Positions 5,631 to 56,184 are shown, numbered from the stretch's first letter. The stretch: 64,000 nt of DNA from Thermoplasmata archaeon (GCA_021797355.1 JAJZZX010000003.1:124001-188000), one strand, 5' to 3'. Notes: a model not told the origin generated them from the letters alone. Program-made: numbers and translations.

Positions 5631-6047
5631 ATGCAGGCCAAGTCTGAAGGGAACAGAATAATGGTCAAGGCTGAATATGGCGAGGACGTCAAGGATGTCA
5701 TCAATTCAGTGCTGGACAAATTTCACATTTCATCCGGCGAGATAACATGGGGTCTCGGAAAGATAAGGGACCTTGAAATAGGATATCATGATGGCAAGGA
5801 CTATCTGCGGAGAGTTTTCCGCGATGGCCTTGAGATTGTTTCCTTCCATGGATCGATAGCCTCCGTTGAGCCAAGGCTGCATATTCACTGTGCTGGAGCC
5901 GGTCCTGATCATGCGCTTGTTGGCGGTCATTTCTTCGGAGGGATTGCAGAACCGCTACTTGAAATGAGCATAACAAAATTTGATGAGATCAATATTGTCC
6001 GCGAGAAATCCCAGAAATCAGGTCTCATGGAGGCAAGGCTTATCTAG
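5631..6047 (+). CDS. PPC/DUF296 domain protein
   Basis: A 138-residue protein consisting of one PPC (plants and prokaryotes conserved, DUF296) domain. Visible signatures are GLGKIRD at 41-47, SFHGSIA at 71-77, the HIH pair at 84-86 and VGGHFFGG at 97-104. In archaea and bacteria the domain forms trimers with a metal-binding histidine cluster; in plants it is fused to AT-hooks. No AT-hook is present here. Biochemical function is unknown. Its 3' end overlaps the end of the oppositely oriented Fe-ADH gene by four bases. Confidence 0.8.
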   Translation: MQAKSEGNRIMVKAEYGEDVKDVINSVLDKFHISSGEITWGLGKIRDLEIGYHDGKDYLRRVFRDGLEIVSFHGSIASVEPRLHIHCAGAGPDHALVGGHFFGGIAEPLLEMSITKFDEINIVREKSQKSGLMEARLI

Positions 6048-7072
6048 AGCATCTCACGCAGAAGCTTTTCTGCTAGGTCTCTGGGGCCGCCAAGTTTCTC
6101 CGCTATGTAGTTGAAATCCTTCTCAGTTATGCCGTATTCGCTTAGGGTAGATGCCAGCCCAAGATTTTCAATGAAGCTTGCTACGCTGGCAGAAAACTGC
6201 TTTGCTAGTGCCTTTATGTCGGTGGATTCCATCCCAAGAGCTTGTGCCATCAAGGCGAGAGGGGCAGGTTCTGTGCGGGCATAATGGCTCAGTACAGCCG
6301 GCAGAGTGATACAACTAGTCACGCCATGAGGAATTTCCCATTTAGCGCCAATTATTCTTCCAATGCGGTGGCTGAGCCCAAATGGCGAATCGAAAACCTC
6401 GAAGTAAGAATACCATGCTGCAAGCTGGCATTCATGACGTGCATCCAGGGAATCGTTGCCAAGGTTGTAGATGATTTTCCGGAGTGCCGCCAGGGCCATG
6501 ATCCGTGCGGGTTCGCTCTGGAAATTTGATGTCATTGTCTCAATGACGTGATCCAGTGTCCTTATGCCAGTTGTCCTCCACAACCTTTGAGGCGTCTCAA
6601 CAACAGCCTCAGGATCCAGGAAGACGTACTGCGGCGTTATTTCCCTGTCCCGGATCCCACTCTTTTCTCCCCCGATGGAGTACCCAGCAGAATGTGAAAA
6701 TTCAGCTGCTGAGAGGGTGGTTGGGATAGATATCTGCACAGCATCGTGCCTATAATAATACCTAACAATCTTGGCAGCATCCTGTACGCTGCCTCCTCCA
6801 ATTGAAATGATTCCGTCACAGCCTTTGTTCCTCATCATCTCCGTGGCGTGCTCTATCTCTTCCATGGGAGCATGCTGGGTAATCTCCCTGAATTCGGAAA
6901 AGCCCGTCTGGAGATCAGCCAGGAAGTCGGAATAGAACACTGTCCTGGAAACGGAATTGGACGAAATAATGAGCGGATTATTTATGCCAAGTTCTCCAAG
7001 GAGGCCAGGGAGCTCCAAGGTGGCGTTCTTTCCGTGATAGACTGTCCTGAGGGGAAGGTAGTTGAACTTCAT
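6044..7072 (-). CDS. Fe-ADH superfamily protein, maleylacetate reductase-like
   Basis: A 342-residue protein of the iron-containing alcohol dehydrogenase superfamily, at the short length typical of maleylacetate reductases. The NAD(P)-binding SIGGGSVQDAAK is at 90-101 and SIPTTLSAAE at 115-124. Metal-site positions are altered: the position of the FucO metal-ligand Asp is R171, while H175, H235 and H249 are kept. Maleylacetate reductases also lose that Asp. It is last in the HPPD-FAH-HGO operon, overlapping the HGO stop by four bases. I infer it reduces an HGO ring-cleavage product; a general aldehyde reductase cannot be excluded. Confidence 0.75.
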   Translation of the reverse strand: MKFNYLPLRTVYHGKNATLELPGLLGELGINNPLIISSNSVSRTVFYSDFLADLQTGFSEFREITQHAPMEEIEHATEMMRNKGCDGIISIGGGSVQDAAKIVRYYYRHDAVQISIPTTLSAAEFSHSAGYSIGGEKSGIRDREITPQYVFLDPEAVVETPQRLWRTTGIRTLDHVIETMTSNFQSEPARIMALAALRKIIYNLGNDSLDARHECQLAAWYSYFEVFDSPFGLSHRIGRIIGAKWEIPHGVTSCITLPAVLSHYARTEPAPLALMAQALGMESTDIKALAKQFSASVASFIENLGLASTLSEYGITEKDFNYIAEKLGGPRDLAEKLLREML

Positions 7073-8214
7073 TTGTACCAGGATTCCATATAGCCGGCAT
7101 CCTCTGCCTTCAGTGCAGATGAAGTAACCATCAGCGGCTCGTAGGCTTCCACCATTACCGCGATTTCATCCGTGCCTTCCTTGCCAATTGCAGCCTCCAT
7201 GGCCCCCGGTTGTGGTCCATGGATCAAGCCCCTGACATGAAGAGTTATTGATCCTGGGGATATCCCCCGACGGCTCATGAAATTGCCTGACGAGTAAAAG
7301 AGGACTTCATCCGTATCGATGTTGCTATGGTAATATGAAATTGGGATGGAACGGGGATGGAAATCGAACTTCCGCGGCAGGAAAGTACCTAGCATGAAGG
7401 AAGGGGAGCTGAATGTCTCGTGGACAGGCGGCGGTTGATGCAACTTTCCAACAATTGGTGCCATCAGGCGGGTGCTTATGGCGAATGGGTATAGATAGCC
7501 ATCCCAGCCTGCAACATCAAAGGGGTTGCGGTCCCTCAACTCTTCCAGGAAGTAGTCGCCATAATCCACCATGACAATATATTCCCCGGGTGAATCGTCC
7601 GGCTTGGCCAGTGAAGGCACCCGTATGTCTCTTGTATAGAATGGTGCCCCCTCCTTGATCTGCCCGTAAACATTGAGGTATCTTGGAGGGATGGAGCATC
7701 TCTGCCTTGATTCCACCAGGAATGCCTCAATTCCAGATGCGCCAGATATTCTGTAGGTTGTCCCCTTGGGAATGTAAAGATAGTCATCTTTCTGGAAGGC
7801 GATGTTGCCAAGCATTGTTTCAAGCAATCCAGACCCCTTATGTATGAACCATATCTCGTCGTGTACTGCATTCCTGTAAAGTCTTTTGGTCTCATTGAGC
7901 GGCTTGACAACTGATAGCACTAATGATGAGTTGAACATGAGCGGAATTCTTCCATCAACAAAATCCCCTCTGGCTTCAATGTCAAAGGACTTTATGTGCC
8001 TGTGCCTCATCTCTGCCTGTGAACCTTTGGCAAGGGAACCTTTCTCCTTCCTGGAAAGCGACTTCACACGCGTAGGCTCCCCGAGGTGGTATAGAAGCGA
8101 ATAGGGGCCTTCAAAACTCTCCTCTCCAAAAAGCTCCTCACGCAGAATACTTTCCCTGCTGTCATATGTATGCCTGCTCTCAGGCATCCTTCCCTGTTTA
8201 ACGTAGAAAACCAT
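7069..8214 (-). CDS. hmgA: homogentisate 1,2-dioxygenase
   Basis: A 381-residue cupin-fold dioxygenase that opens the ring of homogentisate to maleylacetoacetate. The C-terminal iron site is intact: H296 and E303 in YYHSNIDTDEVLF, and H332 in GLIHGPQPG. An N-terminal cupin half includes HDEIWFIHKGSG (118-129). It is somewhat shorter than the roughly 440-residue bacterial and animal enzymes, mainly at the N-terminus, as in other archaeal homologues. It lies third of four genes in a tyrosine-catabolism operon, eight bases after the FAH-family gene and overlapping the reductase-like gene. Confidence 0.9.
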   Translation of the reverse strand: MVFYVKQGRMPESRHTYDSRESILREELFGEESFEGPYSLLYHLGEPTRVKSLSRKEKGSLAKGSQAEMRHRHIKSFDIEARGDFVDGRIPLMFNSSLVLSVVKPLNETKRLYRNAVHDEIWFIHKGSGLLETMLGNIAFQKDDYLYIPKGTTYRISGASGIEAFLVESRQRCSIPPRYLNVYGQIKEGAPFYTRDIRVPSLAKPDDSPGEYIVMVDYGDYFLEELRDRNPFDVAGWDGYLYPFAISTRLMAPIVGKLHQPPPVHETFSSPSFMLGTFLPRKFDFHPRSIPISYYHSNIDTDEVLFYSSGNFMSRRGISPGSITLHVRGLIHGPQPGAMEAAIGKEGTDEIAVMVEAYEPLMVTSSALKAEDAGYMESWYK

Positions 8215-8222
8215 GCTGTCAC

Positions 8223-9134
8223 CTACACTATTCCTGATACGAGTTCCCCAAGGACACTGGAATGAAATCTGACCACATCACCCTTTTTGAGCCACCCATT
8301 CTTTTCAGGGCCAATTTCAAGTATGCACCCTCCTCCTGCAGTGCCGCTCATAATGATATCGCCAGGCTTCAGGCTGGTTCCGGTGGATGCCCACGAAATC
8401 ATTTCCTGGAATGTCCAGTGCATCCTGTTCAGGTTTGAGGATGCGTACTCATTATCGTTGACATATGCCTTGAGATCGCAATCCAGCTTTCTTTCCGGAT
8501 CAAGCCGGGATGCCATCTCATCCGCAGTCACAAGGAACCGCCCAAAGCTTGTGGCAAAATCCTTGCTCTTTGCAGGGCCAAGGCCGATCTTCATCTCCTT
8601 TCTCTGTATGTCCCTTGCGCTCCAGTCATTTGCAAGCATAAACCCGAATATGTACTGCCAGGCATCGCTCTTCGGTATGTCCTTGCCCTCCTTCCCAATC
8701 ACTGCAGCCACCTCAAGTTCAAAATCAAGTTCGCTGCTGAACTCGGGATACGTTATATCATGATCACTGGGGAAAAGCGAGGAATTTCCGGAGTAATAAT
8801 AGGCTGGAAACTCGTACCATTCAGGCACCATTTCGAGGCCCCTCCTTGCCCGTGCGGCCCTGACATGATCCTCAAATGCATAAAAGTCCCTTATCTGGTT
8901 CACCATTGGAATCGGAACAAGATATGAAGACGGGACATAGTCAGTTATTCCTGAAAGCCTGCCCTCTCTTAGAAAGGCGGCAACCTTTCCAGAACTCCTT
9001 GACACATCGGAAAAGAAAGTTCTTGGGGATTCTCCTGGATCAACTCCTGCAATCTCATAGAAATCCAGGAAAGACTCTCCGTGTACCACAACGGTTTTTG
9101 GCCCATCGTCGGTATTTATTCTTGCTATCCTCAT
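8223..9134 (-). CDS. fumarylacetoacetate hydrolase family protein
   Basis: A 303-residue FAH-fold hydrolase. The catalytic Asp/His pair is D83 and H90 (DFYAFEDH), corresponding to human FAH D126/H133. The metal ligands are E139 and E141 (ELE), with D170 in ANDWSARD. A C-terminal SWASTGTSLKPGDIIMSGT is the family's GD-GTP region. Human FAH is 419 residues; this is the compact form. From its position two bases after HPPD and before HGO, it should release acetoacetate plus a C4 acid (fumarate, or succinate if the product is first reduced). Related FAHD-type acylpyruvases are an alternative, but context favours the homogentisate route. Confidence 0.88.
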   Translation of the reverse strand: MRIARINTDDGPKTVVVHGESFLDFYEIAGVDPGESPRTFFSDVSRSSGKVAAFLREGRLSGITDYVPSSYLVPIPMVNQIRDFYAFEDHVRAARARRGLEMVPEWYEFPAYYYSGNSSLFPSDHDITYPEFSSELDFELEVAAVIGKEGKDIPKSDAWQYIFGFMLANDWSARDIQRKEMKIGLGPAKSKDFATSFGRFLVTADEMASRLDPERKLDCDLKAYVNDNEYASSNLNRMHWTFQEMISWASTGTSLKPGDIIMSGTAGGGCILEIGPEKNGWLKKGDVVRFHSSVLGELVSGIV

Positions 9135-9136
9135 GG

Positions 9137-10222
9137 CTAAAGGTTACCCCTTCTTGCCTGCTCGGCCTCAATGGACTTGAAGAGCTCCCTGAAATTGCCC
9201 TTTCCGAATGACGTTGCCCCTTTTCTCTGTATGACCTCGTAGAAAAAGGTTGGCCTGTCACCCACGGGCTTGGTGAAGATCTGAAGAAGATAGCCATCAT
9301 CATCCCTGTCCACAAGTATGTTCAGGCGCCTTAGGTCCTCAAGCTTTTCGTCTATTTTCCCCACCCTCTCAAGAAGTGTATCATAATATACGGAAGGTGT
9401 TGGCAGGAATTCAACACCACGTTTCTTCATCTCCTCAACGGTCTTCACAATGTTGCCGGTCTCAATGGCAATGTGCTGTACACCTGGTGAGTTGTAGTAG
9501 TCCAGGTACTCCTGTATCTGTGATTTCTTCAGCCCTATTGCCGGCTCGTTAATGGGAAATATGATCTTCCTGTTGCCATAGTGGACCACCTTTGATCGAA
9601 GGGCAGAGTATTCGGTACTTATGTCCTTGTCGTCAAAGCTGATGAGCTGATCAAAACCCATGCCCTTCACATAATAGTCAACCCATGAGTTCATCATCCT
9701 GTCTTCGACATTTCCCACTATATGATCGATCTTCTTCAGACCAACTGGTTTTGCCCTGCTACCAACCTCCACAAAATTTGGAGGTATATCGGAGCCGTAG
9801 TCTGCAGTTTCCTCCAGAGTGTGTAACGTATCACCGAATGATGACACAACGGCGGTGTTCATGACACCATCGCGGCCCTTGATTCTTACTGTATTTCCCA
9901 CCCTGGCAATTCCGCGTTTGCGGATGAATTCAACTGTATCGCCGAGGTTTTCAACGCTTAATGATACATCCCTGACTCCATCCCCATGAAGCCGCACATG
10001 ATCTGCAATTGGAGAATTATAGTTCAGAAAGCTTGTGAAGATGAGCTTTACGTCACCCTGCCTGAGAAGGTATGATACCCTGTCCCTGATGCCTGTTTCC
10101 GGCCCGGAATAGGCAACCAGATCGAAGCCGAGTGCCTGTTGATGGTAATAGGCCCACTGCCTGGCTGATCCGACGTAATATTCGACAGCGTTGACCGAAT
10201 CGAACAGGTTTTCATTGTCCAT
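9137..10222 (-). CDS. hpd: 4-hydroxyphenylpyruvate dioxygenase
   Basis: A 361-residue Fe(II) extradiol-type enzyme that converts 4-hydroxyphenylpyruvate to homogentisate. It has two vicinal-oxygen-chelate halves, and the C-terminal one carries the iron ligands H167 (KKIDHIVGNV), H250 (GVQHIAIETG) and E329 (FFYEVIQRKG). Length is normal for the family. It is the first gene of the leftward operon, so the promoter should lie in the 107-116-base divergent gap shared with the HemQ-type gene. No tyrosine aminotransferase is nearby, so the keto acid must be made elsewhere. Confidence 0.92.
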   Translation of the reverse strand: MDNENLFDSVNAVEYYVGSARQWAYYHQQALGFDLVAYSGPETGIRDRVSYLLRQGDVKLIFTSFLNYNSPIADHVRLHGDGVRDVSLSVENLGDTVEFIRKRGIARVGNTVRIKGRDGVMNTAVVSSFGDTLHTLEETADYGSDIPPNFVEVGSRAKPVGLKKIDHIVGNVEDRMMNSWVDYYVKGMGFDQLISFDDKDISTEYSALRSKVVHYGNRKIIFPINEPAIGLKKSQIQEYLDYYNSPGVQHIAIETGNIVKTVEEMKKRGVEFLPTPSVYYDTLLERVGKIDEKLEDLRRLNILVDRDDDGYLLQIFTKPVGDRPTFFYEVIQRKGATSFGKGNFRELFKSIEAEQARRGNL

Positions 10223-10279: not shown

Positions 10280-10337
10280 ATGTCACATGATATCCAGTGC
10301 CATCACTCAGGCGGAAATGCATAACTAATTGAATGCA

Positions 10338-11021
10338 ATGGAGGAAATGATAAAGTTGGGCGAAGAGATTTACACATCTGTCCTCACCTACAGGTTCCGG
10401 CAAGAATTTTACGCCTCTCCTGACAGCCAGAAGGACAGGACTGTTGATTCCATTAATTCGTTCTTCAACCAGTGGTCCGGGAAACTGATCAACCTCAGGA
10501 TGTACAGATCAGTGCGGTACGACTGCGACATAATTTTCTGGTTTTCATCCCATGATCCGGCTTCCATTGCAGGTTTCCGGGAATCACTGAACCACTCTTT
10601 TTCGGGGATGGCTGAGCCTGCTTACAGCATGTTTTCACTCTATGAGCATTCCCCCTATCTCAAGGCTGGCAAGAGACTGGAAGATACACTGAGGTTCCCG
10701 CCAAAGAGGTATTTTGTTGCATACCCGATGAGCAAGACTCCGGACTGGTACCTCATAGACTATGACGAGCGAAAGAAGATACTGGCTGAGCACATCGGAA
10801 TGGCATCATCACATCCGGAAAACCAGGACATTAGATCATATACAACCTACTCATACGGGCTTGGAGACCAGGAGTTCGTGGTTCTTTACGAAACTGATTC
10901 ACTTGCGCAATGGTCGCACGTGACTGCAAAACTAAGGGAGGCAACTGCAAGGAAATGGATCATAAAGGAAGAACCAATATTCATTGGAATACTGTCTGAG
11001 CCATTTGCCATGCAGAGGTGA
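10338..11021 (+). CDS. hemQ: chlorite dismutase-family heme protein, HemQ-type
   Basis: About 227 residues, with YPMSKTPDWY and EHIGMASSH giving the signature of the chlorite dismutase/HemQ family. The tyrosine of YPM matches the residue implicated in coproheme decarboxylation, and the histidine of EHIG the proximal heme ligand. HemQ makes heme b from coproheme and is also found in archaea. I prefer the ATG at 10338; a TTG three codons earlier (10329) is in frame. The gene is divergent from HPPD and ends three bases before the convergent zinc-ribbon gene. A non-HemQ heme-binding Cld-like role is possible. Confidence 0.75.
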   Translation: MEEMIKLGEEIYTSVLTYRFRQEFYASPDSQKDRTVDSINSFFNQWSGKLINLRMYRSVRYDCDIIFWFSSHDPASIAGFRESLNHSFSGMAEPAYSMFSLYEHSPYLKAGKRLEDTLRFPPKRYFVAYPMSKTPDWYLIDYDERKKILAEHIGMASSHPENQDIRSYTTYSYGLGDQEFVVLYETDSLAQWSHVTAKLREATARKWIIKEEPIFIGILSEPFAMQR

Positions 11022-11023
11022 TT

Positions 11024-11656
11024 TTACGGCTGGTTCTGCTTTCCCATTGCATCCTTCACTCGCTTGACTAGCCCTCCAAGGGCATCTCCAACGTTGGTGC
11101 CCTTCCTCATTGTGAAGGAATATCGGCCCTGGCTATCCTGGCTTAGCCCAAGGGAGGCCAGCATGGCATTCTTGATCCTCTCCTTTTGCCAGTTGTCCTG
11201 AATTTCACGCAGCTTTGACATTGTATCTGTGAGGCTTGTGGTCAATATTCCTGCCTTCATTGACAGTATCATCTCATCGCTGCTGATCGATCTCATGGAA
11301 TTTTCATCTACAACCAGGGCCAGTATGTCGGCACCCATCCTGTACTTCGCAAGGACAAGCGCCTCCCACACCTTCTCGCTCAGGCGGGAAGATGAATATG
11401 CCACGAGGACTGATATTTCAGGAGACACCATTAGCAGGTTATCCATGCCTGAAAGTTCCGGGGGCAGGCTTCTCACACTGTTTGCAGACCAGCCCAGTGC
11501 TCTGGAGTGCTTCTTAAGGGCAACCATCATTTCAGATTCTCTAGAGTCCGCTGCAGAAGCACTGTGATCTGCATTATTATGCATTGGAGAACCGCATTTC
11601 TGGCAGTATGCTACACCTTCCGGCATATGTGAACCACAGTTCGGGCACACAATCAT
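11024..11656 (-). CDS. zinc-ribbon protein at the end of the phospho-signalling operon
   Basis: A 210-residue soluble protein. An N-terminal zinc ribbon with CPNC (C4, C7) and CQKC (C18, C21) is followed by a short linker and an unrecognised alpha/beta domain (about residues 45-205). The latter has a LLMVSPEISVLVAYSSS-type strand near 75-91 and a charged helical C-terminus. The ribbon resembles that of the FHA protein in the same operon, which suggests a shared docking element. It begins 63 bases after the membrane kinase stop in the same direction and is probably the last gene of the operon. Its function is unknown. Confidence 0.65.
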   Translation of the reverse strand: MIVCPNCGSHMPEGVAYCQKCGSPMHNNADHSASAADSRESEMMVALKKHSRALGWSANSVRSLPPELSGMDNLLMVSPEISVLVAYSSSRLSEKVWEALVLAKYRMGADILALVVDENSMRSISSDEMILSMKAGILTTSLTDTMSKLREIQDNWQKERIKNAMLASLGLSQDSQGRYSFTMRKGTNVGDALGGLVKRVKDAMGKQNQP

Positions 11657-11719
11657 GAAATAACCATGGCAGAAGATGATTTGAAAACTTCCACTGGCAT
11701 CAAACTCGAATCGGGAGCA

Positions 11720-14071
11720 TCATTCATGTAAGCTCTTGAACCCGTAGTCATGATTGGCACAGTGCAAGAGGCTCTTCCTAATCTCGCTCATGTCGCTGTA
11801 TCTGTTTGCGGGGTCTGGATCAATGCACCTCATTATTATGTACTGCAGCGGCTTCTTGACGAATGGGTTTACCTTTGACGGTTCCGTTACCGGAACAGAA
11901 CTGGCATCCCTGATGAGCTGGTTCCTGTCTGAATAGAACTTGCTGGAATTGACCCTGCTCTCAATGAAGACCTGCCTCTTTGCAAGGTTCTTCGCAGACT
12001 TGAAATCGTTGTGCGATCCCGTCAGCATGTAATACATTACCATTCCGAATTCATATACATCATAAGTTTCATCTGTGTTATAGTTGTTCAGGAGTATTTC
12101 TGGAGGTGAATAAAGGACGGAGAACTGTGAGAAGACTATGTTGCCAAATCCCCTTACCTTTGCTGATCCGAAATCGACTATTTTTGGAACCATGACGTCC
12201 TTTCTCATGTCCTGGATAAGCCTTTCCGGCGTCCTAGCGTAAGACTTGACAGAGAGCCCATTTCTGCTGGAAAACATTATGTTATCTGGCTTTATGTCAC
12301 CGTGCAGTATCTTTGCGTCATGGGCATCCTGTAGCCCCTGCTCAACCCTGGTGACAATCTCAAAGAACAGCTCGATCTGCTTCTGTGTGTTGAACTTTAT
12401 TTCAAGGTCAGACAGCTTTCCTCCCTGAAGCAGTTCCATGATAATTGCAGGGGGGTTCTCCTTGTATTTCTCCATCTTTGTGCCGTCTTCCGGATACGTC
12501 CTGAGGCCAACCCCTATGATATTTACAACATATTTCTTTCCATTGAGGATCATCACATTCTGGAACTCAAGCAGAAACTTTCTCAGGAATTCGTTGTCAA
12601 ACGCAATCTTGGTCCCGTCTGATGCGAACGGTTTCAGTATCTTGATGGCGACCTCTGCCTCGCCCGGCTTCACAGCCTTGAGAACATAAGCAAAGCCTGT
12701 TTCCCTGCTGATTATATCAGTTACCCGATATCCAGATATTTCCCTGCCAATCCAGAAGTCCGGGACATTTTGGGAATTGCCTGAATGCTGTGCCGGCCTT
12801 GGCTGAGGCTTTGGCTTTGGTGTGGGCTGCACCACCTGTACACTCTGCTTCCTGGCAGCCGGTTTACGGTTTACCTGGACAGTCTTGAGCAGATCATAGT
12901 TGGCAAGAAACTTCTCCTTCATTGATCCGGAAATGTATCCGGCAGTTCCCACAACTACAGACGACAGTGCCATGCCTGCAATAAGGGGCACCTGGAATTT
13001 CCCCCCATCGCCAGCCATATAAAGGGAGATAAGCCCCATGGCAAGGATAGTGCCAAATACAATTGTAGACTTCCCACCCTTTGAAGCGATTATTCTGCCA
13101 GCCAGGACAAAGAACGTCAGGATAAGAATAGCTATTAGGACGATGAAATAAACCCTGGGAGACAGGAACTCCCTGAATCCAATCTTTCCGTCAATGAAGG
13201 ACGTAGGCAGGAGGCCGAAATAAAGGAGAATGAAGTATCCTCCAACTGTTGGAATTACCGCACCTGCCAGCTTCTTAAGAGACATCGGCCGGGAAAAGCC
13301 CCTGAATATGTATACTATTGAGATGGACGCAATTATTGCAAGAACATATGACAGAAGCAGGTAAGCTAAAGGAAAAACCAGTGTTGCTGGATGAACTAGG
13401 CCGGAGAGGAAATACTTCAGGCTGCCTTGTAAATACAGGGGCACCATTACCATGTTCCCGTACAGCAGTATTGCTGGTATCCTTCTGTGAAATTTGAACC
13501 TTGCATAATAGGCCTCCACGGCAATCATTGGGATTGAGATGTAAAATACTTCGTGAACGAATGTTGAGAGGGAATCCATGTAAACAAGATTTCTGTTAAG
13601 CTGCGGAATGAATGCGAGAAGCATGAAGGTTCCGGTGATTATGGCCTCCCCTGAGATCTTGTTCTTCAGTGGTGCCTTCTTCAGTAGTGCTGAAAAGAAG
13701 GAACCTGTTACAAGGATAAGTGCAAAATACGGCATGTAGAGGAGCCCGATAGCCATGTAGGGTTCGGCAGGGAGGAGGAATGACATTGACCTGTATTCCC
13801 TAACAAGAAGCAGGAGAAAGCTCAGAAGGAAGAAGAGCCACGCAAATCCCACAATGGACTTCCTGGCTGCCTTGTAGCCGCCCTGTGGATTCTTTGCGAC
13901 AGTTCCGAAGGCAACCAGAACTATTGCCAGCTCGAGAGTTAGGGCTGTGACTAGATGTGCATGCGGTATAGCAGGGAACACAAGGACATAGCTGTTGGCA
14001 AATATTATGAGCGCTACCAGAACAAGTACGGATCCTGCGGCCTGGAGTATCAGGCCCGCTTTAGAGGCCAT
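11720..14071 (-). CDS. polytopic membrane protein with C-terminal Ser/Thr protein kinase domain
   Basis: A 783-residue receptor-like kinase. Residues 1 to about 385 contain around a dozen hydrophobic helices. A Pro/Lys/Gln linker (about 400-435) leads to a Hanks-type kinase domain (about 440-780). Conserved elements are the lysine in VAIKILKP, the catalytic loop HGDIKPDN near 590, DFG in KIVDFGSAK, PPE in place of APE, and the helix-F region YDVYEFGMVMYY. The glycine loop is degenerate (ISRETGFAYV). The start overlaps the phosphatase gene by 22 bases, indicating tight coupling. Its likely substrates are the co-encoded FHA and VWA proteins. The sensed signal is unknown. Confidence 0.85.
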   Translation of the reverse strand: MASKAGLILQAAGSVLVLVALIIFANSYVLVFPAIPHAHLVTALTLELAIVLVAFGTVAKNPQGGYKAARKSIVGFAWLFFLLSFLLLLVREYRSMSFLLPAEPYMAIGLLYMPYFALILVTGSFFSALLKKAPLKNKISGEAIITGTFMLLAFIPQLNRNLVYMDSLSTFVHEVFYISIPMIAVEAYYARFKFHRRIPAILLYGNMVMVPLYLQGSLKYFLSGLVHPATLVFPLAYLLLSYVLAIIASISIVYIFRGFSRPMSLKKLAGAVIPTVGGYFILLYFGLLPTSFIDGKIGFREFLSPRVYFIVLIAILILTFFVLAGRIIASKGGKSTIVFGTILAMGLISLYMAGDGGKFQVPLIAGMALSSVVVGTAGYISGSMKEKFLANYDLLKTVQVNRKPAARKQSVQVVQPTPKPKPQPRPAQHSGNSQNVPDFWIGREISGYRVTDIISRETGFAYVLKAVKPGEAEVAIKILKPFASDGTKIAFDNEFLRKFLLEFQNVMILNGKKYVVNIIGVGLRTYPEDGTKMEKYKENPPAIIMELLQGGKLSDLEIKFNTQKQIELFFEIVTRVEQGLQDAHDAKILHGDIKPDNIMFSSRNGLSVKSYARTPERLIQDMRKDVMVPKIVDFGSAKVRGFGNIVFSQFSVLYSPPEILLNNYNTDETYDVYEFGMVMYYMLTGSHNDFKSAKNLAKRQVFIESRVNSSKFYSDRNQLIRDASSVPVTEPSKVNPFVKKPLQYIIMRCIDPDPANRYSDMSEIRKSLLHCANHDYGFKSLHE

Positions 14072-14940
14072 TCTATGCTACCCTCCACCTCATCCGGCAC
14101 AATTCCTATTTTCTGGCTTTCCTTCCCGAGGCCGCCATCGACCTGTACATCAAGAATGGCAGCCTTTCCCTTGTGATACCTGGAGGAGAAAATTGAAACA
14201 AGCATATCGCCAAACATGTATTCATATCCGTTCTTCTTCACTTCATGTGCCCTGACCATCAGTTTGATTCCATTTTTCCGGGCAAAATCATTGAACGCGT
14301 CCGGGCCAAAGAGATAGGTGCCCTCACCCCTAGTTCCCGGAAGAAATCCGTCAACGTATTCCCTGGGATCATTCCACAGTATCTGGAATGCATCCTGGTT
14401 GGCTGGCTCCAGGTCATCCATTGGCAGTTTCTCCCAACTGCCAATTTCTGTCGCGCCCTGCGGTATTCCCCCATGGACGGCAATCAGCTGGCCGTTTATG
14501 AAAAGGGCGTATGGCAGCCGGCCATAAAGCCTGAGTATGTGCGGATAAACCGATTCAAGCAGGCCAAATTCCTTAAGCTCATCCATGAAACCATAGTATT
14601 CGTTCGTAAGGGAACTCTCATGATTTCCCCTCACTATTACTATCCTCGTGGAAAAGATTGCACATTCTACCGGGAATAAAAGATTGAGCAGCTGGTTCTT
14701 GCCTCTGTCAACAAGATCGCCCACAAAGCACACCATTCTGCTGTTCACAGAGACTGCAAGAGCATAGGATGTTACGTCAAGCGCACCATGGGTATCGCCA
14801 ATAAATGTAACTGTCCCCGATTCAATCACGACCTTCTTGACAGGAACGGGATGGCCCAGCTTTTCCACATACCTGTCAATGGTGTCATTAATCTGGTTTG
14901 GAATTGCTAAATACATTTGAAGCACCGATTCAAACTGCAT
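14050..14940 (-). CDS. PPP-family serine/threonine phosphatase
   Basis: A 296-residue metallophosphatase of the PP1/PP2A/PP2B family. The dimetal motifs are complete: GDTHG at 48-52, GDLVDRG at 74-80 and RGNHE at 104-108, followed by H156 in AVHGGIP and R230/H232 in VRAHE. This is the full PPP signature, so activity is expected. It should reverse phosphorylation by the co-encoded kinase. It overlaps the FHA gene by 11 bases upstream and the kinase gene by 22 bases downstream. A diadenosine-tetraphosphate hydrolase of the same fold is less likely given the operon. Confidence 0.9.
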   Translation of the reverse strand: MQFESVLQMYLAIPNQINDTIDRYVEKLGHPVPVKKVVIESGTVTFIGDTHGALDVTSYALAVSVNSRMVCFVGDLVDRGKNQLLNLLFPVECAIFSTRIVIVRGNHESSLTNEYYGFMDELKEFGLLESVYPHILRLYGRLPYALFINGQLIAVHGGIPQGATEIGSWEKLPMDDLEPANQDAFQILWNDPREYVDGFLPGTRGEGTYLFGPDAFNDFARKNGIKLMVRAHEVKKNGYEYMFGDMLVSIFSSRYHKGKAAILDVQVDGGLGKESQKIGIVPDEVEGSIEWPLKRA

Positions 14941-15484
14941 TCAGTGACGTAACCTTTATTATGGTCCCCTCTCCGAACTTTATCAGTGATTTTTCAGCAA
15001 TCTTTGTCTTCTCCTTTATCTCAACAAACTTCACTCCATCATAGAGGAAGGAACCATTGCTGCTCCCGACATCTTCCAGGTAGTAAGAGCCGCCGTCTAG
15101 GACTATTTTTGCATGCATCCTGGAGACGCTGCCGTCCGGAATCTGAAGCACATTCTCCGGGGATCTTCCCACAGAAACCGCAGGAAAGACGGAGAAATTG
15201 ACCCTGACCTTCTTTCCCATAAGCCCTTCAACTGGCGTCTGGACAAACTGAATCTCGAGGAAACTCTCGTTTTCTGGAGGAGGGGATTCCACCTTCTGTG
15301 ATTTTTCCTGAACGGGCGGCTGCGGTGCAGATCCCTGGGGCGGAGGGGCCTGCTGGCTCTCCTGAAGCCTAACTTCTGCCCCTGTTTCCACCACACTGAT
15401 CTTTCCTGAGCCGCAAACTATGCACACGTCTTCTGAATCCTCATTCTGGGAACCACACTTAGTGCAAAACCATGTCATTTTCAA
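14930..15484 (-). CDS. FHA-domain protein with N-terminal zinc ribbon
   Basis: A 184-residue adaptor. The zinc ribbon uses C7/C10 and C21/C24. A proline- and glutamine-rich linker (about 38-72) leads to a forkhead-associated domain (about 76-184). Phosphothreonine-binding residues are conserved: GRS at 105-107, SRMH at 120-123 and SSNGS at 140-144. FHA domains bind phosphothreonine peptides, so this protein probably reads marks made by the membrane kinase and recruits partners. It overlaps the VWA gene by four bases and the phosphatase gene by 11 bases. Confidence 0.9.
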   Translation of the reverse strand: MKMTWFCTKCGSQNEDSEDVCIVCGSGKISVVETGAEVRLQESQQAPPPQGSAPQPPVQEKSQKVESPPPENESFLEIQFVQTPVEGLMGKKVRVNFSVFPAVSVGRSPENVLQIPDGSVSRMHAKIVLDGGSYYLEDVGSSNGSFLYDGVKFVEIKEKTKIAEKSLIKFGEGTIIKVTSLNAV

Positions 15485-16665
15485 TTCCTCTTTATCTTTG
15501 TTGTCTGGTTGTACGCTTCTTTCTTGTCCACATCTCCACTGCCAGAGGACAGCACCCGGTCAAGTTTCCTCGTAGCCTCTATGAACTCGATCTTCCTGGT
15601 TGCGTTTGCTGCCTCCATGGCCTGCTTGTTTATCCTGGTGGCGGTGTCAAAGTCTCCCTGAGCAATCAGGTATTCCACCTGGTTCATCTGCATCTTTAGC
15701 CTTGCCTCGTTTACCAGGTCCCTGTTAATATGTGATACAACGGTTTCTGAATTCTTGGTCCTGGTAAGGTTCAAAGTTTCCCGCAAATCCTTCTGTGAGC
15801 CGTCATTGTCCCTGAAGGAAAGGGTTGCCTGCATTGCGGCAATGTTCCCTTCAGCCCCTCCCTTTATGTCTATGGACCCTGTGACATTGACTGGAGTTGA
15901 ACCTATTGACCCAAGGGATACGGTTGCAATGCCGTCATCAACGGTGAATGACTGGTCAAAGATATTTATTGATCCGGATTCGCGAGGTACAATCTTAAGA
16001 ACTGCTGATGAACCCCCGGAGGTTGCTGCTTCAACGGCGTACTTTCTGAAGGTATCGGAAACAAGGCTCCTGTCTGTGGCGTTTACAAAATCACCGTTTG
16101 TTATGTCTGAAATCCTCTTCAGTATGGTCTCATCATAGTCGCCTATTCCTATTGAAACGATTTTCATTCCTATTTCAGATGCGTTGGCAGCAAGCTTCTC
16201 ATACTGGTCCAGGTCATTGACATCTGACGGCTGGCCGTCAGTGAGAATTATCGCTGTCACTGAACCGCCCTCCTGGCTGAATTTCCTGGAATCATCATAC
16301 ACCGTCTGTAGCGCCCGGTACAGGCTGGTTCCACCTGAGGCTTTAATCTTGTCAATTTCTCGGGTTATCTTATCTATGTCGTCAACCGGAGACATTGGTA
16401 TTATTCTTTCTACCCTGTTTGCGAAGGAATAAAGTGCCAGCTCATTGCTTTCCCCAAGGACATCCAGAACCATTTTGGCAGCATCCTTGGCATCATCCAG
16501 TTTCTCTCCATGCATGGAGCCGCTTCTGTCAATTACAACCGCAATGGCGGATCCCGAACCGGTATCTTCACCCTCCACGGCACTTACTGCTATCTGGAAA
16601 TATATCTTGGTAAGCGTGTCAGAGAAGCAGTAGGAATTGCTTGCCTTAAGTTCCATTTTCAGCAT
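15481..16665 (-). CDS. von Willebrand factor A (VWA) domain protein
   Basis: A 394-residue protein whose VWA domain (about 35-215) has an intact MIDAS metal site: DRSGS at 46-50, T113 in SGGTSLYRA and D143 in ILTDGQPSD. A beta-rich region (about 220-330) follows, then a helical C-terminal part with charged residues. No signal peptide is seen, so it acts in the cytosol. VWA/MIDAS domains bind protein partners through a metal-bridged acidic residue. It is the first gene of the leftward signalling operon, overlapping the FHA gene by four bases. A second ATG at codon 4 could be the true start. Confidence 0.88.
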   Translation of the reverse strand: MLKMELKASNSYCFSDTLTKIYFQIAVSAVEGEDTGSGSAIAVVIDRSGSMHGEKLDDAKDAAKMVLDVLGESNELALYSFANRVERIIPMSPVDDIDKITREIDKIKASGGTSLYRALQTVYDDSRKFSQEGGSVTAIILTDGQPSDVNDLDQYEKLAANASEIGMKIVSIGIGDYDETILKRISDITNGDFVNATDRSLVSDTFRKYAVEAATSGGSSAVLKIVPRESGSINIFDQSFTVDDGIATVSLGSIGSTPVNVTGSIDIKGGAEGNIAAMQATLSFRDNDGSQKDLRETLNLTRTKNSETVVSHINRDLVNEARLKMQMNQVEYLIAQGDFDTATRINKQAMEAANATRKIEFIEATRKLDRVLSSGSGDVDKKEAYNQTTKIKRN

Positions 16666-16847
16666 ATTATGGAAAGAAATAATTAAAGTTTAAGAATATT
16701 TTGGTCTATAATTATATATTTCACAAAAGAGGCAGAAGTGCGGTATAATTCCATACAGAGAAGGTTCCACGGCAAATTAGGCATATGGCTGGCGAGAAAA
16801 TTGAACATTGCGTCTCAGCAGGAGGAATGGTTTCAGCAGCTTAAAAT

Positions 16848-16871: not shown

Positions 16872-16915
16872 GTGTAATTCAGAATGTTATTATAATAAAA
16901 TTCAGTTTGGAACTC

Positions 16916-17440
16916 ATGACAGAAAACGCGAACCTTTCAGAGTTGATTGAGAAGTCAAGGAAAATTTCTGAGGATGGGGCATTGGTCACATATGACCTGA
17001 CGCTGGGACTGGATTTCAGCAACCCGGCATTGGTGGCCAGATCCCTTGCGGAGGTCTTCTTCAAGGAGGATGCTTCAGGCTGGTTTCGGGTTGACGGAGA
17101 TGAGGTCAAATTCGCGCCTACGCACAAGGTAAGAATAGTTCTGTCGCAGGATCATGGAAAGATGCTTGAAAATGTCATAGATGATTTCCTGAAGGATATG
17201 AAGATAGAGGAACTGCCTGAGCATTTTGCTGCCCAGATAAGGGATGAAACGGATGAATCGGCCAGGCTAAAGGCCAAGATGGTGGCCCATAGCCTCACTT
17301 CTTCACTTTTCAGTCACAGCGAAAAAAAGGTCCTAAGGGAATACATAACGGATGATCTGCTGGTCGATCTACTGGGAAGCCTGGAAATTCGCACACTCAG
17401 CGGACAGGACTTAATCGACTGGAAGAATATCCCAATATAG
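16916..17440 (+). CDS. hypothetical protein divergent from the VWA operon
   Basis: About 174 residues, soluble, acidic and mixed alpha/beta. It starts MTENANLSELIEKSRKISED; an in-frame TTG three codons earlier is less likely. The C-terminal half (105-165) is helical and charged, with the segment HSLTSSLFSHSEKKVLREY. No catalytic motif or family was recognised. It is divergent from the phospho-signalling operon and could share its regulation. The GC-rich hairpin begins 16 bases after its stop. Confidence 0.6.
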   Translation: MTENANLSELIEKSRKISEDGALVTYDLTLGLDFSNPALVARSLAEVFFKEDASGWFRVDGDEVKFAPTHKVRIVLSQDHGKMLENVIDDFLKDMKIEELPEHFAAQIRDETDESARLKAKMVAHSLTSSLFSHSEKKVLREYITDDLLVDLLGSLEIRTLSGQDLIDWKNIPI

Positions 17441-51824: not shown

Positions 51825-51830
51825 TTTTTT
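51825..51830 (+). terminator. oligo-T transcription terminator candidate
   Basis: A run of six T about 50 bases after the TPR gene stop. Archaeal RNA polymerase commonly terminates at oligo-T without a hairpin. It lies just before the start of the giant surface-protein gene, so it could separate the two transcripts. Confidence 0.3.
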
Positions 51831-51840
51831 GTTAATATAC

Positions 51841-54800
51841 ATGTTTCAGTCTCTTACCTACACAAATTTCTTTTTATGCAGATACAATCATGAATCCTTG
51901 AGAAAGGGTTTGAAAGTTACAGCAATAATGATTTCCATATTGGTGGTTTCTTCAGCCTTGGCTATGGTGGGTGCAAGCTTCACCCATGGACAGCCCATAG
52001 GTAAGGAAAAACTTCCACCAACCAATACTAAAGTGAATTATTTCTCTATGCCCTATCACATTAATAAAAAGCATTCTTCAGCAGAGTCTGATACGGTTCA
52101 GTTATCCGGGTCGGGGCTCATGGAACAATTTACTTTCATTGAGTCCGGCCTCCCCTCTGGCACTCTATGGTCAGTTGCCATCGCAAATCAGACAATTTCC
52201 TCAAGAAACCAGAGCATGTCGTTGAACCTGGAATCAGGACTTTACTCTTACCGGGAGAATAATGCCGTCAACTTTTTTTCACCACAGTCTAGTGGTACCA
52301 TAAACACTGCCTCCAGATCATTGCTAATCCAATTTTATGGGATTTTTAATGTCACCAAGAGCCTTAACCTGACATCCGGCTCTTTATCGTCTGCGCTGCC
52401 TTCTCTCAATAATTCAGCTGCCCTTTCCTATGGAGTTTACGATAAATGGAGCAGTTCCATCCTTGTAGCAGACTATTCAAGCGGAAAAATTGTAGAAGTA
52501 AACGCAACATCACTTGCAATTGAAAAAGCAGTTAATTTGGGATATGCCCCTAAGGATATTGCTGTTGGCAACCTCGGCACTGTTTACGTACTGTCAAGTT
52601 CTTACATTACCGAACTGAACAGCTCGCTGATTCCTGTCAGATTTATAAAGCTCGACACAACAGATGCAAGATCAATTGCTTATAATCCCTCATCTGGACT
52701 TATTTTTGTTGGCACATATTCAAATGGCACGCTTATCTTCAATTCCTCTAGCATGCAGCAGACAGGGTCACTTCCTTATGCTGATGTCCAGAGCACTCAG
52801 GGCATATTCGTGTTACCTGATTCCGTGAATACATATATTGCCAGTTATAGTAACGATACTCTAATAGAACTTGCTGGCACTAATGTTGTCAGGTATTACA
52901 CAATTCCAGCTTCGCCAATATCCATTCTGGAAATCCCTCATGGTACCATGATTATTTCCACATTTCCAAGCCCGCAAACTGGCTTCTCACTTTTCAGGCT
53001 TAATCTTTCCAGTGGAAACGTCACTGGCATAATTAATGCCACAATCGAAGTTGCATTAGCTTATGACCCGCAGATAGATACTGTGCTGGCAGGATCAGTT
53101 TGTGCTTCCCCAGAAGTCTTGGTTATGAATTCCCGGTATTCAGGGTTAGCTGAGAATATATCTACCGTTATGCAGCCATATTTCATGATATATGATCCGG
53201 AGATTGATGCAGTAGTTTCCGGCGGTATCTTTTCCAACGGACTTGAAATCCTTTCATTATCAGATCTTCCTGTCACGCTAACATTTTCAGAAACCGGCCT
53301 GCCAAATGGAGTAACATGGTCAGTAAAGGCAGATAACTATACCATATCATCAGACTCAAGCCATCTTAATTTTACTGTGATTCCAGGTAACATAAGCTAC
53401 GTCGTTAAAGCGCCCCAAAACTTTACTGCACAGACGCAGGGATATGCCGTTGTAGGCAGCCAAAACTATTCTGTTAAGATTGAATTCTATCCCCTCTATG
53501 ATGTTAAATTTATAGAATCAGGGCTTCCCAGTGGTTCTGAATGGAATGTTAATTTTACCGGATTTAATCTGTCATCAGATTCACATTCTTTGGTATTCAA
53601 GGCCACAAGTGGACTTCACAGCTATGTCATTTACGGCAGTGGCATGTATTCAAGCAGTTTTCCGAAGGGATACATCAATGTATCAGGGAACGAGACAATA
53701 AATGTAGAATTCACAGGTAATCCTTCAAGGGTTCAGTTTAGATCTAGTGGCCTACCAGCGTCGCAGCCCTGGTATGTCAAAGTGGATGGACTCATCCTGG
53801 CATCGAGTGGGAATTATTTGAACACATCAGCGGCTCCTGGAAGTTACAACTACACTATCCTTTCAATTCCGGGTTACAAGGCTTACCCATCCACTGGATC
53901 TTTCTTGTCATCCTCATCCGTTCCTATCAACATTACCTGGAAGCCTGTCTTGTATAATGTCACGATTACTGAAACTGGCCTCCCCTCTGGATATACCTGG
54001 GCGATCAATGTGTCCGGCTCCGTTTACTGGAACAATGGGAATACCACAGTGCTGCAGCTGCCCAATGGATCTTTCCAGATGCATGCATTCGTTAAAGGTG
54101 CGGTATACTCCGCACTTCCGGTTCATTTTAGCATAAATGGCTCAGAAATTGCAGTTTCAGTAATTTTCACGGCAGTTCTCTATGATATTGCGATTCATGA
54201 GGAAGGCCTTCCACAAGGATATTCCTGGAAAATATCTCTTAGCAATGGAATGGTGGCTGCCGCTGCTGCCGGAATTCCAATCAGTCTTTCGTTGATGAAT
54301 GGCACATACCAGGCATCTTTACAGGATTCAAGCACTTCATATCGGCCCATTTATGAGCAGATAAACTTAACAGTTGACGGCGCTTCCTACAATTATACTG
54401 TCACGTTTGTTCCAGTTGTCTTCAAGATTGAACTGGAAATACTGAATCTTCCTCAGAATACTAGCTGGTCACTATTCATTGGTACAGCCTCATATACAGG
54501 TATAAGTGGACCGCAGTTTGTCACCTATCTTCAAAATGGAACATATGGAATAAAGGTCGTCCCTTCAAACCATGATTATCATTCATTTTCAGGCAGCGTA
54601 AATGTCTCCGGGGCAGGTAAAACTATTAAGGTTATCCTAAGTCCTGTACTGTTCGTGGTTAATTTCACCGAGAGAGGATTGCCCCCTGGATCAGAGTGGT
54701 ACATTGCAGGTCAAAACGGATCTAACCTAATTACATCTGGCAGCGTACAGTCAGCTCTCTTCATGAATGGTTCCTATTCACTTAGATACATATCATTCAG

Positions 54801-56184
54801 CCCTGAATTTAAGGGAGGAACTGTTAGTTTTGTTGTTGATGGTCACAGCCTCAATTTATCTCTGCATTTTACGCTAGTTCAGTATGAGGTTGTTTTCTCC
54901 GTTGCAGGCCAGTACAGGCCTGAGTCATGGTACCTTTCTATAGATGGTGGAAAATATGTTGAGTACAATTCACTAAGTGCAGCTCTGTTTCTGCCAAATG
55001 GAACATACACATTTCTGGCATCTCAGGGGAACACCTCGTGGGGAGAGGCAACTGGGAATTTCACCGTTTCAGGTTCTGCCTTAAGTGTTACAATAATTTT
55101 TAAACCTGTAGAATACAGGGTCAATTTCACTCTTGACGATGCAAGTCACATTGCTTCTTGGTATCTGAACATCTCAGGAATGAAGTATCTTGCATCAGGG
55201 AAATCGTATTCCGTTTACTTGCAAAATGGCACATATTCATTTTCTATCAGCGGAATTCCAGGTTTCATCTCATATACGTCAAACTTTTCAGTTGACGGCA
55301 AAAATATGGATATATCTGTGCATCTAGCATCAGATAGCCACCTAGTCATCTTCAAAACCGATCTTGCGAGGGGTGAGAACTGGTACTTGAATATGTCCAA
55401 TGGCGAAAACTTTACAATTGACACTCCCGTTTTTCATGTTGCTCTCGCTAACGGAAACTACTCATTCACAATTTACAGCAGCGGGTATCGGCTATATGCT
55501 GGTAACTTAACTCTGAAAGATACCAATATTGTTCTGCATATAGATCTAATTCCCGTAAAGTTACAAGTTATATTCAGGGAAACAGGGTTGCCTTCTGGCA
55601 CCATCTGGGGCATAAACATCAATGGCAGCACTTTCCGTTCATCTGCCAGAACAATACAGGTGGAACTCCCGGCAGGACATTATTCATTAAACGTTTCAGC
55701 TATTCCAGGGTATATGGCGCAGGCACCGGGCAATTTTAATTTGAATCATGCCCACATGCATATTCATATTCATTTCCGTAAGGTGCATGAGCAATTTTAC
55801 CCTGTTACAATATCGTCTTTTGCGCCACCAGGGGTTTTGATTTCTGTAAGTATTAACGGTACAGCCATATTGCATCCAATATTTCAGTTGCCGGATGGAA
55901 ACTACACCGTTGATGTTTCTATCTGGCAGAAAGGAAGCCCATGTACAGCAGAGTTTAATTTCTCTGTGAATGGAACCGGTGTCTCTATCCTAATAATCAT
56001 CGCTCCACCGGCAGTTGCAACATTTATAGTATATAATTTACCACCAGGGCCTCTCTTGCCTGGCCCAGAAAATATGCCGGCAAACATTCCGCCTTCTCAA
56101 CCGCTTCCTCCGCCACCACCACCGCCTCTTCCTGGTTTAAATCCAGGTTTTCACCCAGTGGAACAATTTTTTACAAGAATCTGA
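51841..56184 (+). CDS. giant secreted repeat protein with ETGLPSG-type domains
   Basis: About 1447 residues. A hydrophobic N-terminal segment (KVTAIMISILVVSSALAMV) is a signal or anchor. A TTG at 51898 directly before RKGLK, the ATG at 51841 and a TTG at 51829 are all possible starts. One repeat near residue 100 is followed by a beta-propeller-like region (about 190-470) with NG-rich blades. About 12 further repeats of 75-85 residues follow, each opening with a variant of ESGLPSGxxWxV. The C-terminus is a polyproline stretch. Such repeats are typical of Thermoplasmatales surface proteins. It converges on the gene at 56171 with a 14-base overlap. Confidence 0.85.
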   Translation: MFQSLTYTNFFLCRYNHESLRKGLKVTAIMISILVVSSALAMVGASFTHGQPIGKEKLPPTNTKVNYFSMPYHINKKHSSAESDTVQLSGSGLMEQFTFIESGLPSGTLWSVAIANQTISSRNQSMSLNLESGLYSYRENNAVNFFSPQSSGTINTASRSLLIQFYGIFNVTKSLNLTSGSLSSALPSLNNSAALSYGVYDKWSSSILVADYSSGKIVEVNATSLAIEKAVNLGYAPKDIAVGNLGTVYVLSSSYITELNSSLIPVRFIKLDTTDARSIAYNPSSGLIFVGTYSNGTLIFNSSSMQQTGSLPYADVQSTQGIFVLPDSVNTYIASYSNDTLIELAGTNVVRYYTIPASPISILEIPHGTMIISTFPSPQTGFSLFRLNLSSGNVTGIINATIEVALAYDPQIDTVLAGSVCASPEVLVMNSRYSGLAENISTVMQPYFMIYDPEIDAVVSGGIFSNGLEILSLSDLPVTLTFSETGLPNGVTWSVKADNYTISSDSSHLNFTVIPGNISYVVKAPQNFTAQTQGYAVVGSQNYSVKIEFYPLYDVKFIESGLPSGSEWNVNFTGFNLSSDSHSLVFKATSGLHSYVIYGSGMYSSSFPKGYINVSGNETINVEFTGNPSRVQFRSSGLPASQPWYVKVDGLILASSGNYLNTSAAPGSYNYTILSIPGYKAYPSTGSFLSSSSVPINITWKPVLYNVTITETGLPSGYTWAINVSGSVYWNNGNTTVLQLPNGSFQMHAFVKGAVYSALPVHFSINGSEIAVSVIFTAVLYDIAIHEEGLPQGYSWKISLSNGMVAAAAAGIPISLSLMNGTYQASLQDSSTSYRPIYEQINLTVDGASYNYTVTFVPVVFKIELEILNLPQNTSWSLFIGTASYTGISGPQFVTYLQNGTYGIKVVPSNHDYHSFSGSVNVSGAGKTIKVILSPVLFVVNFTERGLPPGSEWYIAGQNGSNLITSGSVQSALFMNGSYSLRYISFSPEFKGGTVSFVVDGHSLNLSLHFTLVQYEVVFSVAGQYRPESWYLSIDGGKYVEYNSLSAALFLPNGTYTFLASQGNTSWGEATGNFTVSGSALSVTIIFKPVEYRVNFTLDDASHIASWYLNISGMKYLASGKSYSVYLQNGTYSFSISGIPGFISYTSNFSVDGKNMDISVHLASDSHLVIFKTDLARGENWYLNMSNGENFTIDTPVFHVALANGNYSFTIYSSGYRLYAGNLTLKDTNIVLHIDLIPVKLQVIFRETGLPSGTIWGININGSTFRSSARTIQVELPAGHYSLNVSAIPGYMAQAPGNFNLNHAHMHIHIHFRKVHEQFYPVTISSFAPPGVLISVSINGTAILHPIFQLPDGNYTVDVSIWQKGSPCTAEFNFSVNGTGVSILIIIAPPAVATFIVYNLPPGPLLPGPENMPANIPPSQPLPPPPPPPLPGLNPGFHPVEQFFTRI

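Follow-up and report, generated by a model that had tools for sequence, protein, structure and literature searches.

The five genes at positions 11024-16665 of the window, the 64,000-nt stretch of a Thermoplasmata archaeon genome analysed here, appear to form an Arn-type (archaellum regulatory network) phospho-switch that carries its own membrane kinase, a reading to which we assign a probability of about 0.78. In the Sulfolobus Arn switch, which controls swimming, the kinases ArnC and ArnD act as writers, a PP2A-type PPP phosphatase acts as the eraser, and archaellum and pilus genes are repressed. The basis for our reading is homology, intact motifs, conserved phospho-site positions, conserved gene order and the presence of an archaellum operon in the genome. 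The region is filled by five minus-strand ORFs, in agreement with the five co-directional genes of the initial annotation. Read in the direction of transcription, they start with the gene for a VWA protein (394 aa), followed by those for a zinc-ribbon/FHA protein (182 aa), a PPP phosphatase (296 aa), a membrane kinase (783 aa) and a further zinc-ribbon protein (210 aa). The GC content of the region is approximately that of the remaining window. The host genome comprises 1.74 Mb in 15 contigs, and the named genomes closest to it are MAGs of Thermoplasmata, that of the Thermoplasmatales E-plasma among them.

The first gene (15481..16665, minus strand) encodes a VWA domain, a beta-sandwich and a C-terminal ArnB_C helical domain, with Pfam matches to ArnB_C ('Archaellum regulatory network B', PF18677; 1.6e-26) and VWA (PF00092; 4.9e-19). 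The best solved relative is ArnB of Sulfolobus acidocaldarius (8s05_A, 6e-36, residues 5-373, 369 residues), with the paralogue ArnE/vWA2 (5a8j, 5.6e-20) ranking behind it, and alignment shows the MIDAS residues (D46-x-S48-x-S50, T113 and D143) to be invariant in 10 homologues. The second gene (14930..15478, minus strand) encodes an N-terminal C4 zinc ribbon, a Pro/Gln linker and an FHA domain (Pfam FHA, 3.3e-15); it matches ArnA in the PDB (5a8i, 9.4e-37; 8s05_C, 3.5e-36) over the zinc ribbon as well, its ribbon cysteines C5, C8, C19 and C22 are invariant in the homologues aligned, and the FHA residues G104-R105, S119, H122 and N141-G142 are invariant in 8 homologues. Judged by sequence, the VWA protein is thus ArnB and the FHA protein with its zinc ribbon is ArnA, and since these are the best solved relatives the operon carries the archaeal Arn pair, an identity that the initial annotation had missed.

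Four threonines of the ArnB C-terminal region, T343, T356, T365 and T388, correspond in our alignments to T322, T335, T344 and T375 of the Sulfolobus protein and are invariant in ten homologues (the 8s05 chain numbering is offset by 2 from that of the ArnB paper). The extended alpha8-alpha9 segment of Sulfolobus ArnB, which holds SIETT and T353/T363 and distinguishes ArnB from ArnE, is absent from the aligned operon protein; all module members of the host's own genus (g1), the E-plasma genus (g11) and family f4 have an eight-residue gap there, the segment being present only in the protein of one genome of the host's family (G024, discussed below). The main FHA docking site must therefore differ from that of Sulfolobus.

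The phosphatase (14050..14940, minus strand) belongs to the PP2A/calcineurin-type PPP family of Ser/Thr phosphatases, matching Pfam Metallophos at 3.1e-23 and, in the PDB, rdgC, calcineurin, PP2A, PP1 and PP5 at 1e-27 to 1e-20. The motifs GDTHG, GDLVDRG, GNHE, HGG and RAHE are present, and the metal and catalytic motifs are kept across seven homologues. The PPP type is expected here, because the partners of ArnA and ArnB in Sulfolobus already include the PPP-type PP2A, which co-purifies with both proteins (PMC7472852), alongside Ser/Thr kinases. The Pfam matches and the motif residues present or invariant in these three proteins uphold the earlier view that the VWA, FHA and PPP motifs are intact.

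The kinase (11720..14071, minus strand) consists of a block of membrane helices (residues 1-390), a linker and an ePK domain (about 440-783; Pfam Pkinase 3.1e-21, residues 460-764). The initial annotation had noted that the catalytic loop is kept, and more than the loop is intact: K477 (VAIK), HGD-x-K-x-x-N (590-597) and DFG (633-635) are all present, the glycine loop is degenerate, and by these motifs the protein is a non-RD kinase. The figure of about 12 membrane helices given earlier is plausible but not firm; hydropathy indicates 9 clear helices in this protein and between 9 and 12 in orthologues from complete operons, and a structure model of very low confidence (mean pLDDT 38, three sequences) contains about 12 long helices. 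The membrane half is only 49% identical to that of a same-genus orthologue and the kinase half 83%, with corresponding values against E-plasma of about 26% and about 66%, which is the pattern to be expected where a sensor varies and the output domain fused to it is conserved. Neither ArnC nor ArnD has membrane helices, and the ArnC kinase domain is preceded by a TPR region (PMC5300886), for which Pfam found no match in the operon kinase. The latter is a putative functional counterpart of ArnC/ArnD. Paralogues of the operon kinase that lack the VAIK lysine, HxD and DFG, and so are membrane pseudokinases, occur in the E-plasma genus (L072:2218-4686, L070:10115-12586), where their genes adjoin large surface-type proteins.

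The operon is tightly packed. All close homologues of arnA start at the in-frame ATG (MTWFCTKCG...), which lies at 15478 here, is preceded at a distance of about 9 nt by a GAGG ribosome-binding sequence and leaves a 2-nt gap to arnB. Of the overlaps of 4, 11 and 22 nt reported initially, the 22-nt PPP/kinase overlap stands and is kept in same-genus relatives (25 nt in E-plasma), the 11-nt arnA/PPP overlap depends on the choice of the ATG, and the 4-nt arnB/arnA overlap falls away, resting as it does on the alternative TTG at 15484. Across the relatives inspected the junctions arnB-arnA, arnA-PPP and PPP-kinase range from a 15-nt gap to a 25-nt overlap; a 63-nt gap separates the kinase from the zinc-ribbon gene. 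Upstream of arnB, a T/A-rich element around TTTAAA or TTTATA lies ~30 nt before the ATG in eight genomes (compared by eye only), and we mark a putative TATA-box region for the operon promoter at 16680..16712 (minus strand, approximate limits placed by eye; AAATATTCTTAAACTTT in the window, AATATTTTTAAACTTA in relatives), about 15-47 nt upstream of the ATG, which is a leaderless-type spacing.

The order arnB-arnA-PPP-kinase is complete in two further genomes of the same genus (G210 and G323), is cut within the kinase by a contig end in a third (G324) and is spread over two contigs in a fourth (G322). It is likewise complete in one genome of the E-plasma genus (G162) and cut by contig ends in three (G258, G310 and G294), and it recurs in G246, which belongs to a second family of the order. 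The PPP phosphatase adjoins arnAB in every relative whose contig reaches far enough. Within the genus the flanking genes are kept, whereas outside it the operon genes match and the flanks do not. Conservation across two genera and a second family in unrelated surroundings points to a conserved functional unit rather than chance, and we regard this gene-order comparison as strong evidence that the four genes are such a unit. The search for the VWA-FHA-PPP-kinase order suggested in the initial annotation was therefore successful, and the cluster is not confined to this strain. The same conservation, with the TATA-like element and the tight junctions, supports the proposal that writer, reader and eraser are co-transcribed. 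To call the operon complete, as was done initially, is generous: writer, eraser and reader are present, and there is neither a DNA-binding output nor a signal among the identified parts.

Alternatively, the genes could be neighbours whose functions are in part separate, with many proteins as targets of the kinase and the phosphatase and ArnAB as one client among them. In Sulfolobus, PP2A is involved in growth, cell shape and archaellum synthesis (PMC7693658), and the operon kinase is one of only two proteins in the host genome with a Pkinase match (the second adjoins a PP2C), so it could be a general kinase. The tight junctions, the conserved upstream element and the recurrence of the four-gene unit in unrelated surroundings nevertheless make this improbable, and we retain the reading of a dedicated Arn-type switch.

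The module is rare and patchy, since profile scans of 300 genomes of the class and 117 of the order found ArnB_C in only 6 and 10, respectively. Among the ten plasmid matches listed there was only generic VWA, at most 27% identical. A different arrangement, ArnA-PP2A-ArnB, occurs in G024, a genome of the same family and another genus. As in the operon, ArnA, the PPP phosphatase and ArnB are adjacent, but the order differs, the ArnB is far nearer to that of Sulfolobus (8s05, 1.2e-96), no membrane kinase adjoins the cluster and the genome has no archaellin; this Sulfolobus-type cluster probably reflects transfer between acidophiles. That two gene orders both place the PPP phosphatase with ArnAB supports their coupling. 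G024 also encodes a 611 aa kinase with several membrane helices away from the cluster (L075:5721-7556), a possible partner. In the host assembly itself, a second arnB-arnA-PPP-kinase copy (L019; contig C2, 3666 bases) has DNA 88% identical to that of G323 and 71% identical to the window copy, and this contig probably entered the bin from another species of the genus instead of arising by duplication.

In a paper on E-plasma, a PP2A-family phosphatase and a membrane-associated Ser/Thr kinase are among the gained genes, as separate gains, and the word ArnA is absent from it (PMC10354927). A further paper treats ArnA-ArnB pairs in general and finds that the two genes frequently lie together but are not part of any archaellum or T4P locus (PMC4858521). 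Neither the four-gene operon nor an ArnAB-dedicated membrane kinase is described in the literature searched, subscription papers aside.

The initial annotation had taken the bacterial TerY-P triad as the nearest analogue, which is wrong. A TerY-P-type stress triad with a swapped phosphatase would contain the same kinds of parts, since VWA, phosphatase and kinase lie in one cluster in both, but TerY-P has a PP2C rather than a PPP enzyme and neither FHA nor ArnB_C, and the VWA protein here carries ArnB_C and matches ArnB best. Given these family assignments (ArnB, ArnA and PPP) and a separate TerY-P-like triad elsewhere in the genome, we find such an identity scarcely credible and reject it. That triad (L087:5463-8477, contig C7 about 153462-156476) comprises a weak VWA match with DxSxS, a PP2C (3.8e-5) and a convergently placed kinase (9e-13).

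Membrane kinase, phosphatase and FHA reader are often encoded together in bacteria as well, as PknB/PrkC with PrpC/PstP and GarA, OdhI or FhaB, where the phosphatase is of PP2C type and the kinase has a single membrane helix and a PASTA sensor. The FHA domain of those systems is similar to that of the operon, and they have no ArnB. An anti-phage or conflict system was also considered, as the kinase domain resembles MADS6 and PD-T4-6 kinases in PADLOC (best 5e-28). These matches span only the generic kinase domain, however, and the other operon proteins gave weak noise at most against defence models; PADLOC found no partner genes of the MADS or PD-T4-6 systems in the operon, no nuclease or other effector was identified, and the flanking genes are kept in same-genus relatives, so that a defence role seems very unlikely and an Arn-type switch remains the preferred reading.

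In comparison with the Arn system of Sulfolobales, whose kinases also include ArnS, the operon shares homologous ArnA (zinc ribbon and FHA) and ArnB (VWA, beta-sandwich and ArnB_C), a PP2A-type PPP phosphatase, a Ser/Thr kinase and conserved phospho-threonine positions. It differs in that its kinase carries 9-12 helices in cis, whereas helix-free ArnC and ArnD are encoded at other loci, in that its ArnB lacks the T353/T363 segment, and in its added zinc-ribbon accessory gene. In S. acidocaldarius the zinc ribbon of ArnA loosely holds unphosphorylated ArnB, ArnC phosphorylates the ArnB C-terminal helical domain (T353, T363 and T375 first, T322 and T335 later), and the ArnA FHA domain then tightly binds phospho-threonine ArnB (PMC12852372). 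For the present operon we infer the substrate relation of kinase to ArnB, the binding of ArnA to ArnB, the signal and the output. The multi-helix part of the kinase would sense a signal at or in the membrane and set the activity of the cytoplasmic kinase domain, which would phosphorylate ArnB on threonines of its C-terminal helical domain and tail, T343, T356, T365 and T388 being the best candidates. ArnA, loosely held on unphosphorylated ArnB through its zinc ribbon, would then clamp the phospho-threonines by its FHA domain to give a tight complex, and the operon phosphatase would reverse this clamping. The membrane kinase may thereby replace ArnC as the writer, while docking would rely on the threonines that are conserved, together with the NQTTKIKR tail. 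If the system works as it does in Sulfolobus, formation of the tight complex would alter the expression of surface-structure genes (archaellum and pili), and perhaps of stress or metabolic genes, via a DNA-binding partner encoded outside the operon.

The fifth gene (11024..11656, minus strand; Pfam Zn_Ribbon_1, 4e-7) is a fast-evolving accessory. Its product is 35% identical within the genus, compared with 63-81% for the other four proteins, and the gene is present in relatives of the host's own genus, is displaced downstream in the E-plasma genus after two extra genes, and in G246 does not occur downstream of the kinase. Its C-terminal domain perhaps has a restriction-endonuclease-like fold with no obvious active site, a weak assignment that comes from a model of pLDDT 65 with EcoT38I as the best Foldseek match (E 1.8e-3, TM 0.37).

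Several observations concern the neighbourhood. A 177 aa orphan ORF (16907-17440) lies between arnB and thiI and is absent from that position in G210, G322 and G324. On the other side, a co-directional cluster at 6044-10222, to judge by eye from the ORFs listed, resembles a pathway for breaking down aromatic amino acids (homogentisate type), and is adjoined by a HemQ-like gene (profile match, 10329-11021). The Arn operon of E-plasma continues with a 1257-1258 aa DUF2341/surface-type protein (L015:12842-16618, L074:4133-7906), a distant relative of the 1451 aa PEGA-domain protein of the window (51829-56184), and kinase paralogues at other loci likewise neighbour DUF2341/surface-type proteins.

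The initial annotation had called the output unknown. This view is too pessimistic: a class of outputs is known for the Arn system, namely archaellum, pili and stress genes. The host genome contains an archaellum operon (archaellin, DE, further genes, H, I and J), and archaellum or pilus control is on this account the likeliest output by analogy, though weakly supported. An Arn-type switch with some output other than the archaellum, whether stress/DNA-damage, pilus or metabolic genes or a post-translational effect, stands at only slightly less than an even chance. In Saccharolobus islandicus, ArnA represses genes of the DNA-damage response and of ups pili (PMC10470591), and ArnA/B are also found in non-archaellated Sulfolobales (PMC5300886). 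The module is moreover present in G246, where no archaellin match was found (genome 89% complete), and a family-wide scan identified seven archaellated genera of the host's family, the majority of them, without ArnB. On the other side, of the nine genomes of this family (f1) that carry the module or its kinase, only one, which is 66% complete, has no archaellins. The module is found there in just two independent genera, however, and the association is not significant: if 9 of 19 genera are archaellated, it would arise by chance with a probability of about 0.2. Co-occurrence with the archaellum, which had looked promising in the first four genomes, was therefore dropped after the family-wide scan.

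A second archaellin gene of the host lies away from the archaellum operon (L067:8146-9946, contig C10), divergent from a gene for a helix-turn-helix protein that could regulate it. A site-2-protease-like gene is found two genes after the archaellum operon (L066:17884-18504) and, in several archaellated genomes, close to that operon; in E-plasma, a second copy lies within the Arn operon (L015:16622-17233). As the gene is near-universal (59 of 61 genomes of the order) and the Arn-operon copy is the second one, this link to the archaellum locus is a hint only.

The Sulfolobus Arn switch is well understood in its structure, less so in the entry of its signal and in the route to DNA. We tentatively suggest, as a possibility that still falls well short of even odds, that the kinase is a dedicated receptor of the Arn switch, a membrane sensor encoded in cis with ArnA, ArnB and PP2A, with modular input in some relatives, as in E-plasma, where the operon adds the surface-type protein and the second protease-like copy. 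To our knowledge no complete membrane-to-ArnAB pathway has been known in archaea, and this would, if true, be the first. What is new is that an Arn circuit is encoded as an operon together with a membrane kinase of its own, the ArnA-ArnB pair and its PP2A partner being already known. With reader, substrate, eraser and membrane writer together, the operon offers a candidate input sensor and a four-component set for in vitro reconstitution, and the PP2A-ArnAB coupling, which recurs beyond Sulfolobales in two gene orders, appears to be either old or mobile. A regulatory network that is scattered in Sulfolobus thus appears here as one compact unit, in an acid-loving archaeon.
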